Assembly: GCA_902540545.1 (NCBI GenBank)
Contig: CACBMY010000001.1
Location: forward strand, 105,077-148,572
Length of the DNA: 43,496 nt
Reading direction: 5' to 3'
DNA from: an uncultured Pelagibacteraceae bacterium
GTDB lineage: Bacteria; Pseudomonadota; Alphaproteobacteria; Pelagibacterales; Pelagibacteraceae
The first letter of the stretch is position 1. Every line of letters begins with the position of its first letter. Made by a program: the position numbers and the translations under genes. Shown piece by piece: positions 10,841 to 30,787 of this stretch. The notes beneath the pieces were generated by a model. It was not told where the DNA came from, made no database searches, and saw nothing but the letters and a program-made list of their open reading frames with translations.

Positions 10841-11020
10841 TTATTTTTGTTGGACACAAACGTCTTTGATAACTGGAGCATTCGCACAATCAACACATTT
10901 AGTCTTTTGAACTATACATCCATCATCAAGGACTTCAACATCAACTATCTTATCACACTTCGAACAAGTTGAAGAGATTGTTAATCCACATTTTTTACAA
11001 TTATAATTTTCTATTTGCAT
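10841..11020 (-). CDS. Cysteine-rich 59-residue protein, probable zinc-ribbon or metal binder
   Basis: Not in the ORF track because it is short. The minus-strand frame from the ATG at 11018-11020 to the TAA at 10841-10843 encodes 59 residues with eight cysteines at positions 8, 11, 19, 22, 35, 42, 45 and 55. Three CxxC pairs are seen: NCKKCG, CSKC and CVDC. The pattern resembles a treble zinc ribbon or rubredoxin-like fold, but I do not recognise a named family. There is no signal peptide, so it is probably cytosolic. It lies downstream of katG, the hydroxylase and the DUF2061 gene, behind three repeats sharing the core seen in the katG promoter. Coding status is inferred from the intact frame and the ordered cysteine pairs. 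Confidence 0.75.
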   Translation of the reverse strand: MQIENYNCKKCGLTISSTCSKCDKIVDVEVLDDGCIVQKTKCVDCANAPVIKDVCVQQK

Positions 11021-11064
11021 ATTTTAAAAATTAAATATGAAAAAATTATTTTCAACAAATATCC

Positions 11065-11085
11065 TTGCGAATAATTATTATTTAC
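11065..11085 (+). repeat. Operator-like repeat copy 1 (TTGCGAATAATTATTATTTAC)
   Basis: First of three related copies upstream of the Cys-rich gene. The first 18 bases are identical to copy 2 at 11095. The central GAATAATTATTA is also found in one box of the katG promoter. AATAATTATT is a perfect palindrome, so orientation is not informative. It resembles Fur/PerR/Irr-type operators but is a weaker match to the Fur 7-1-7 consensus than copy 3. Confidence 0.55.
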
Positions 11086-11094
11086 GCATTTTTT

Positions 11095-11114
11095 TTGCGA
11101 ATAATTATTATTAC
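11095..11114 (+). repeat. Operator-like repeat copy 2 (TTGCGAATAATTATTATTAC)
   Basis: Second copy, 30 bases downstream of copy 1 on the plus strand, about three helical turns, so a regulator could occupy both on the same DNA face. The 18-base identity to copy 1 is well beyond a simple AT run because it includes the GCG triplet. Between the copies, TGCG/CGCA arms could also form a weak hairpin. Confidence 0.55.
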
Positions 11115-11151
11115 TACAAATTTTCCTTATTAAATTTTTCCTAAATACTTA

Positions 11152-11172
11152 TTGATAATGATTATTATTTAC
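11152..11172 (+). promoter_or_regulatory. Fur-box-like copy 3 of the repeat
   Basis: TTGATAATGATTATTATTTAC matches copy 1 at 18 of 21 positions. Its inner 15 bases, TGATAATGATTATTA (11153-11167), match the Fur 7-1-7 consensus TGATAATNATTATCA at all but one position. It overlaps the stop codon of the DUF2061 gene, about 130 bases upstream of the Cys-rich ATG. Binding by Fur, Mur or Irr is inferred. Confidence 0.5.
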
Positions 11173-11407
11173 TTTTTGATCTACTTGCCCACCACTTATC
11201 TAAAATGAAATACCAAATAGAATTGGCAATTGGTTCTACAATTGCATCGGTCAAAGCTATCATAAAAGATACATCAGCAACTAACATCAAAACAGTTATA
11301 GCAATTGCAAAATGACCAACTGTATAAACAATTGTTCTTAAAATAGAGCCTCTGTTATTGGAATAAATCTGACCGGCAGCTTTAAAAATACCGTTGGTAA
11401 CTTCCAT
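11165..11407 (-). CDS. DUF2061-family small membrane protein
   Basis: An 80-residue protein with two predicted membrane helices (about residues 24-44 and 47-68) and a basic tail KWWASRSKSK. The pattern RSILRTIVYTVGHF...ALTDAIVEPIANSIWYFILDKWW fits DUF2061, a family of small membrane proteins of unknown function. Its ATG shares one base with the stop of the preceding hydroxylase gene, so the two are almost certainly translated from the same mRNA. The link to katG and the hydroxylase is positional only. Confidence 0.7.
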   Translation of the reverse strand: MEVTNGIFKAAGQIYSNNRGSILRTIVYTVGHFAIAITVLMLVADVSFMIALTDAIVEPIANSIWYFILDKWWASRSKSK

Positions 11408-14282: not shown

Positions 14283-14297
14283 TAATAATTATTCTAA
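14283..14297 (-). promoter_or_regulatory. Irr/PerR-like box 2 at the katG transcription start
   Basis: On the minus strand it reads TTAGAATAATTATTA. It differs at one position from box 1, located 23 bases upstream, and covers the expected transcription start of katG. Its GAATAATTATTA core is shared with the repeats before the Cys-rich gene. A repressor here would block promoter clearance. Confidence 0.6.
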
Positions 14298-14304
14298 TTC
14301 CTTT

Positions 14305-14333
14305 TTTATAATTATTCTAAAGAAGATTGTCAA
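14305..14333 (-). promoter_or_regulatory. katG promoter (TTGACA-17-TATAAA)
   Basis: On the minus strand, a perfect -35 TTGACA (14328-14333), a 17-base spacer and TATAAA (14305-14310, 5/6). The start of transcription should fall near 14298, giving a leader of about 38 bases that includes the Shine-Dalgarno. This is the clearest promoter in the window. Both flanking boxes are placed where a repressor would compete with RNA polymerase. Confidence 0.75.
14306..14320 (-). promoter_or_regulatory. Irr/PerR-like box 1 inside the katG promoter
   Basis: On the minus strand it reads TTAGAATAATTATAA, one mismatch from the PerR consensus TTATAATNATTATAA as I recall it, with a left half TTAGAAT like an Irr half-site. 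It lies in the spacer and overlaps the -10. Which Fur-family protein binds is not decided by sequence; Irr is favoured because irr is next door. Confidence 0.6.
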
Positions 14334-14784: not shown

Positions 14785-14801
14785 TTTAAAACTATTCTAA
14801 A
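14785..14801 (-). promoter_or_regulatory. Putative Irr self-operator between irr and fabA
   Basis: On the minus strand it reads TTTAGAATAGTTTTAAA, a near-palindrome with arms TTTAGAA and TTTTAAA that would be perfect but for one base. It shares TTAGAATA with both katG boxes and begins 7 bases before the irr ATG. On the other strand it covers the -35 region of the fabA promoter, so a bound regulator could affect both genes. Confidence 0.55.
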
Positions 14802-14813
14802 CTATTTGTATAT

Positions 14814-30367: not shown

Positions 30368-30787
30368 TTATTTTTTTTTAATACCGTATAGTTCTAATTT
30401 ATGATCAACGAGCTTGTAGCCATATTTATCAGCAATTTTTTTTTGCAATTCTTCGATTTCCTCATCAACAAATTCTATTATTTCTCCAGTTTTAATATCT
30501 ATCAAGTGATTATGATCATCATTTAGCTCATATCTTGCTTTGCCAGACTTAAAATCATGTTTTGTTAAAATTCCAGCTTCTTCAAAAAGTTTGACTGTTC
30601 TATAAACTGTCGCAATACTAATTTTAGAATCTATTTGTGAGACCCTATTATATAGCTCATCGACATCTGGGTGGTCAGACTCTCCATATGTTTTTTTAGA
30701 TTCGGATATTACTCTTGCAATTATCCTTCTTTGATCTGTAAGTTTTACTCCATTTTTTTGACATTTTTCTTCAATAGTTTCTAACAT
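30368..30787 (-). CDS. fur: Fur-family metal-responsive regulator (Fur/Mur)
   Basis: A 139-residue winged-helix regulator. Seen are GVKLTDQRRIIARVI, ISIATVYRTVKLFEEAGIL (recognition helix) and the metal region DHNHLIDIKTGEIIEFVDEEIEELQ, ending YKLVDHKLELYGIKKK. CxxC zinc pairs are absent, as in alphaproteobacterial Fur/Mur proteins, some of which respond to manganese. The position between tsaB and miaB is the classic alphaproteobacterial one. It is a second Fur-superfamily protein beside Irr, so either could bind the boxes near katG. Confidence 0.9.
   Translation of the reverse strand: MLETIEEKCQKNGVKLTDQRRIIARVISESKKTYGESDHPDVDELYNRVSQIDSKISIATVYRTVKLFEEAGILTKHDFKSGKARYELNDDHNHLIDIKTGEIIEFVDEEIEELQKKIADKYGYKLVDHKLELYGIKKK

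Follow-up and report, generated by a model that had tools for sequence, protein, structure and literature searches.

Locus and reading frame

The DNA analysed here, hereafter the window, is a stretch of 43,496 nucleotides from an uncultured Pelagibacteraceae bacterium. Its best named relatives in genome_contigs are single-cell genomes of Pelagibacteraceae, which places it in SAR11. It contains an ORF that runs uninterrupted from ATG to stop on the minus strand and encodes a protein of 59 amino acids (aa) with eight cysteines, at positions 8, 11, 19, 22, 35, 42, 45 and 55, which form three CxxC pairs; the protein has 8 acidic and 8 basic residues. The features of the locus and the candidate regulator are as follows.

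10841..11020, minus strand: 59-aa eight-cysteine protein (P0001), ATG at 11020
11028..11033, minus strand: TAATTT, resembling a -10 element, located 8-13 bp upstream of the ATG (at -13 in the window)
11050..11055, minus strand: TTGAAA, resembling a -35 element, located 30-35 bp upstream of the ATG
11067..11085, minus strand: predicted Fur box proximal to the gene, GTAAATAATAATTATTCGC, centred 21 bp above the TTG; 18-bp repeat at 11065
11097..11115, minus strand: second copy resembling a Fur box, 30 bp (about 3 turns) farther upstream; 18-bp repeat at 11095
11154..11172, minus strand: predicted third Fur box GTAAATAATAATCATTATC, overlapping the DUF2061 gene at its 3' end; 83% copy of the repeat at 11152
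11165..11407, minus strand: DUF2061 small membrane protein (Pfam PF09834, E 1.3e-5, above the cut-off)
30368..30787, minus strand: Fur, candidate regulator (PF01475, E 6.6e-38)

The initial annotation, which gave no strand, had proposed an undetected gene here, with an intact frame of 59 residues, eight cysteines and three CxxC pairs. All of these features were confirmed on the minus strand.

Distribution and conservation of the family

A match to the 59-aa protein was found in 124 of the 297 Pelagibacteraceae genomes sampled. In 75 of the 297 genomes the protein is of the window's own eight-cysteine type (type A), and in 49 of the 124 matching genomes it belongs to another type (type B) at 30-49% identity; a search with a B profile placed type B in 56 genomes. 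No genome carries both types, while about 14 would be expected to do so if the two were independent (a figure uncorrected for phylogeny), and four genera (g1, g3, g4 and g9) contain both types in different genomes. Since A and B never share a genome, it is suggested that the two types replace each other. Beyond this family, one clear A relative comes from another alphaproteobacterial family (L271), with no recognisable Fur box within 170 bp upstream of its gene, and B types are present in a few other proteobacteria. Three B-type relatives from distant proteobacteria (L167, L168 and L274; MATYEC..CGMGVNATCAKC...KIKSPxCCGxDM) show high similarity. A phage origin was considered and rejected, as type A has no relatives on viral contigs or in phages and a B-type protein has no plasmid relative.

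The alignment of 23 diverse A proteins, with identities to the window's protein down to 48%, contains 16 invariant columns, which comprise all eight cysteines together with Lys10, Gly12, Ser20, Gly34, Val37, Lys41, Pro49 and Asp53. The pairwise dN/dS of the A gene ranges from 0.01 to 0.14, as estimated by the simple pairwise NG86 method with dS often above 1 and, for several pairs, at saturation or close to it. The initial annotation had named a broken frame or unconserved cysteines in relatives as grounds for abandoning the gene, and had called for a substitution test of purifying selection; the frame and all eight cysteines are kept in the relatives, and the dN/dS values are low. Small ORFs in an AT-rich genome may be spurious, but the dN/dS range, the 16 invariant columns including the eight cysteines and the conserved promoter described below leave such an explanation with practically no chance here. 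Judged from sequence, the ORF represents a genuine, unnamed gene family in the Pelagibacteraceae (SAR11), whose members lie under the annotation size.

Putative Fur boxes upstream of the gene

Upstream of the start, an 18-bp repeat occurs in two identical copies (11065 and 11095) and one 83% copy (11152), so that 3 matches were found in the window against a chance mean of 0.58. The "operator-like" character that the initial annotation had seen in these repeats is thus borne out by their frequency, and it is further borne out by their match to the Fur consensus. When the upstream regions belonging to 50 distinct A proteins were aligned on the conserved TTG, the consensus GATAATrATwATCATTctC was obtained, and its logo agrees with the classical Fur consensus. 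By this match the repeats are predicted Fur boxes. The best 15-bp Fur-box score of 108 distinct A upstream regions averaged 12.7 versus 9.6 for shuffled sequences, and that of B-type upstream regions was 9.0 versus 9.0 for shuffled sequences, i.e. no boxes were found at B-type genes. Almost every A-type locus retains the boxes, and these loci fall into about ten gene neighbourhoods. In two genomes (G051 and G093) the sole genomic match to the 16-bp core with zero mismatches precedes the A gene, and in another (G155) there are two such matches, one at the A gene and one at sfuC.

The same box was found at sfuC, a gene of the iron(III) transporter, at 17 of 20 loci, the genomes of the g9 clade being among the exceptions (the SfuC query consisted of 93 aa, the last 23 of them approximate, and, along most of its length, its matches shared 56-90% identity with it). 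It was also found near iscR/suf in some genomes and near a few other genes, the genomes scanned for it being complete or nearly so. Fur is encoded in 7 of the 8 genomes surveyed. The A gene therefore has the marks by which we assign a gene to the predicted Fur regulon: a box above chance in the promoter region, an encoded Fur, and the same box at iron genes. Fur, Irr and Zur are separate proteins. Zur was rejected as the default regulator, because it is encoded by a gene of its own adjacent to znuBC and because sfuC and suf carry the boxes seen at the A gene.

In the g9 clade (L239, L240; G031, G060), sfuC has no Fur boxes and the A gene keeps its box. A search for the Fur family in one of these genomes (G031, 84% complete) gave Zur only, yet its A gene has a Fur box. 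This may be explained by genome incompleteness, by a swap of the regulator or by control through Zur.

Promoter anatomy

A TTG is located at -34/-35 from the ATG in 48 of the 50 distinct A proteins and a TAnnnT at -12 in 36 of them, and a Shine-Dalgarno sequence was seen in 1 of the 50. About 6-7 bp separate the end of the -10 element from the ATG. The spacing of the -35 and -10 elements to the ATG and the near absence of a Shine-Dalgarno sequence imply that transcription would begin at the ATG or no more than one or two bases away, giving a leaderless mRNA.

In 38 of the 50 cases the predicted Fur box is centred 21 bp above the TTG, and in two cases 17 bp above it. The g9 clade has a distance of 31 bp and one locus (L047) a distance of 42 bp, positions that are about one and two helical turns above the usual one, and the distal boxes are mostly 30, 41, 50 or 60 bp farther upstream. 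No good-quality Fur box overlaps the -35/-10 region in the A loci scored; the AT-rich matches that occur downstream of the TTG score low and are noise, none of them having the G/C positions of the box. A box that sits above the -35, on a constant helical face and off the core promoter has the geometry of direct activation, as reported for Fur in Neisseria and Bacillus (PMC4014563, PMC7762939).

Gene neighbourhood

In the window, the A gene stands behind the row irr-katG-AspH-DUF2061. Elsewhere it is found beside fabI, UPF0047/AFG1, DUF3833/CMAS, a gene for an M50 peptidase protein or msrB (SelR), and its other neighbours include dapB, thiolase/deacetylase and recJ; in every neighbourhood it has its own promoter. 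No partner gene is consistently adjacent across the A loci. DUF2061 adjoins the A gene in two clades, and in HTCC7211-type genomes (G035, which we take to be HTCC7211) it follows 39 bp downstream of the A gene. DUF2061 was rejected as an obligate partner, as many genomes without the A gene have it too, and the other SAR11 DUF2061 copies examined have no Fur boxes.

The linkage to katG is restricted to the window's clade and a few related clades and thus is not a conserved one. The initial annotation had considered the protein as a redox partner of the katG cluster, and the order of genes in the window's clade is in line with a partnership with KatG. We consider this very unlikely, because a separate promoter with its own putative Fur boxes sets the A gene apart from that row and because katG is absent near the A gene in most other SAR11 clades. 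The occurrence of the Fur-boxed gene in about ten unrelated neighbourhoods indicates that the katG neighbourhood is incidental.

Direction of the predicted Fur control

In the mechanism that we favour, Fe-Fur bound at about -56 would contact RNA polymerase, and the A gene would be switched on by Fe-Fur when iron is sufficient. We rate the chance of activation by Fur as slightly better than even, and that of repression with derepression under iron limitation as slightly worse than even. Fur is likewise bound at the promoter region of iron-activated genes such as Neisseria norB and Bacillus pfeT (PMC4014563, PMC7762939); these genes differ in their products, and, unlike them, the A gene has a predicted leaderless promoter and its activation is a prediction.

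In the main alternative, Fe-Fur occupying the upstream boxes would block polymerase or the alpha subunit of polymerase and so restrict production of the protein to iron limitation; its role could then be, for instance, that of a zinc-thiolate substitute or of an iron-sparing helper co-expressed with DUF2061. The precedent for Fur repression of DUF2061 is what holds our preference for activation so low: in Caulobacter the DUF2061 gene CC_0155 is Fur-repressed, being 13-fold up under iron limitation and 6-fold up in a fur mutant (PMC3751524), and a Shewanella Fur study lists DUF2061 as up 3.51 (PMC12442407). If the A gene and the DUF2061 gene that follows it after 39 bp in HTCC7211-type loci are co-transcribed, repression would be expected; the other SAR11 DUF2061 genes examined, on the contrary, are without Fur boxes. 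The known responses of Fur-boxed SAR11 genes to iron limitation are inductions, and they include sfuC and suf, which carry the same box: in Ca. P. ubique sfuC was up 16-fold and the suf genes about 2-fold (PMC2864753), and in HTCC7211 sfuA/B were up (PMC13271415). However, the boxes of sfuC differ in their placement, lying 20-85 bp before the ATG, apparently in the leader region, and mostly followed by a Shine-Dalgarno sequence. Multiple boxes at the A gene could permit Fur arrays and hence repression, but the boxes lie upstream of the -35, no good box covers the -35/-10 region, and the spacing between box and promoter preserves the helical phase. Taking these points together, we regard repression by such a block as possible but somewhat doubtful, and we keep activation as the working model.

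Possible metal sites, fold and function

SAR11 bacteria, the dominant bacterioplankton of the surface ocean, live with iron at picomolar levels. Ca. P. ubique is reported to have Fur and Irr and to lack ferritin (PMC2864753), and it is reported to be without siderophore genes. A small metal protein under Fur control, lying under the size kept by many ORF tracks, could be a missing component of the way in which such cells deal with surplus or scarce iron.

Searches with Pfam, NCBIfam, PHROG and PDB profiles gave no match above the curated cut-offs, in agreement with the initial annotation, which had not recognised the family. The best Pfam match was the double zinc ribbon PF12773 (E 0.0013, 19.3 bits, below the cut-off of 27.3), and the best of the weak PDB matches was the zinc ribbon of archaeal Nop10 (E 0.18). 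The likeness to PF12773 is confined to the CxxC-x7-CxxC knuckle pair in residues 5-29, and the second half of the A protein (C35, C42xxC45, C55, PVIKDVC) is uncovered. The AlphaFold model, built on an alignment of 15 close, near-identical relatives, was poor (pLDDT 62), and the Foldseek matches of this model to rubrerythrin and Nop10 were insignificant.

The cysteines in CxxC pairs are invariant in the 23 diverse relatives, which is what we look for in a metalloprotein. The A protein, probably cytoplasmic, would likely fold around two metal sites, Cys8/11/19/22 and Cys35/42/45/55, and would then serve iron homeostasis, as a metal buffer or a rubredoxin-like Fe/Zn-thiolate protein. We infer the fold and the function, and also the two-site arrangement and the metal, as the model is poor and no fold was found. 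The zinc ribbon and the small iron or zinc buffer had been offered side by side in the initial annotation. A small metal-binding protein resembling a zinc ribbon is still the best reading, and an iron buffer still has to be considered, given the putative control by an iron regulator. The direction of that control bears on the metal: under activation by Fe-Fur an iron-loaded buffer or a rubredoxin-like protein would be likeliest, and under repression by Fe-Fur a zinc protein of the iron-sparing response. As a whole, a small cytoplasmic protein built around two four-ligand metal sites and controlled directly by Fur seems to us a reasonably probable explanation.

The A protein was compared with several known small proteins. 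Like the FeCys4 proteins rubredoxin and desulforedoxin, it is small and has two CxxC pairs about 30 residues apart; it differs in having eight cysteines rather than four, and with the poor model it shows no sequence or fold match above threshold. The CCGxDM ending of the B relatives presumably resembles desulforedoxin. Bacterial metallothioneins (SmtA/BmtA) are, like the A protein, Cys-rich proteins of 55-60 aa that are possibly metal-inducible; the A protein differs from them by its CxxC knuckles and its invariant non-Cys core, and no metallothionein family in Pfam or NCBIfam matched it. Bacterioferritin-associated ferredoxin (Bfd) is also a small cysteine protein under Fur, in Caulobacter (PMC3751524), but the A protein has no family match and Ca. 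P. ubique is reported to be without ferritin (PMC2864753).

It is also conceivable that the protein is a purely structural zinc-ribbon adaptor for a protein or nucleic acid and that its iron control is incidental, as the PF12773 and Nop10 matches and the existence of type B without Fur control would allow. We think this rather unlikely, since the Fur boxes are kept at nearly all A loci in about ten neighbourhoods, the balance of acidic and basic residues is unlike that of a typical nucleic-acid binder, and no partner gene is consistently adjacent. Returning to a metal protein under direct Fur control, a bolder version, which we consider unlikely, is that ferritin-less SAR11 cells use a small Fur-activated leaderless thiolate protein as an iron sink or sensor-buffer, which moves around the genome as a promoter-plus-gene cassette of about 330 bp. 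If true, this would be a minimal iron store or buffer of a type not described before. The A promoter would offer a clean natural test case for direct activation by Fur. HTCC7211-type cells have been brought into culture, and qPCR can measure how they respond to iron.

Other predicted Fur and Irr boxes

At two loci (L219 and L215), tandem Fur boxes separate an iscR-sufB cluster from a hydrolase-like gene that runs divergently. These boxes are about 100 bp away from the iscR promoter and so may serve the hydrolase gene. Another Fur box was located upstream of a nuoA-like gene (L192, about 1500; G003 C1:551967); nuo genes are reported to be Fur-activated in Neisseria (PMC4014563) and positively Fur-dependent in Caulobacter (PMC3751524). 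A further one (L212, about 1500-1520; G069 C2:128738) has a second Asp/Asn beta-hydroxylase-like gene on one side and a hemB-like gene on the other, and an Asp/Asn beta-hydroxylase is also present in the katG cluster of the window. In that cluster, TATTCTAA-like repeats resembling Irr (ICE) boxes were noticed at 14285-14330, in the gap between katG and the Irr-family gene, and at 14795-14805, before the Irr-family gene, which suggests that Irr may control katG and itself.
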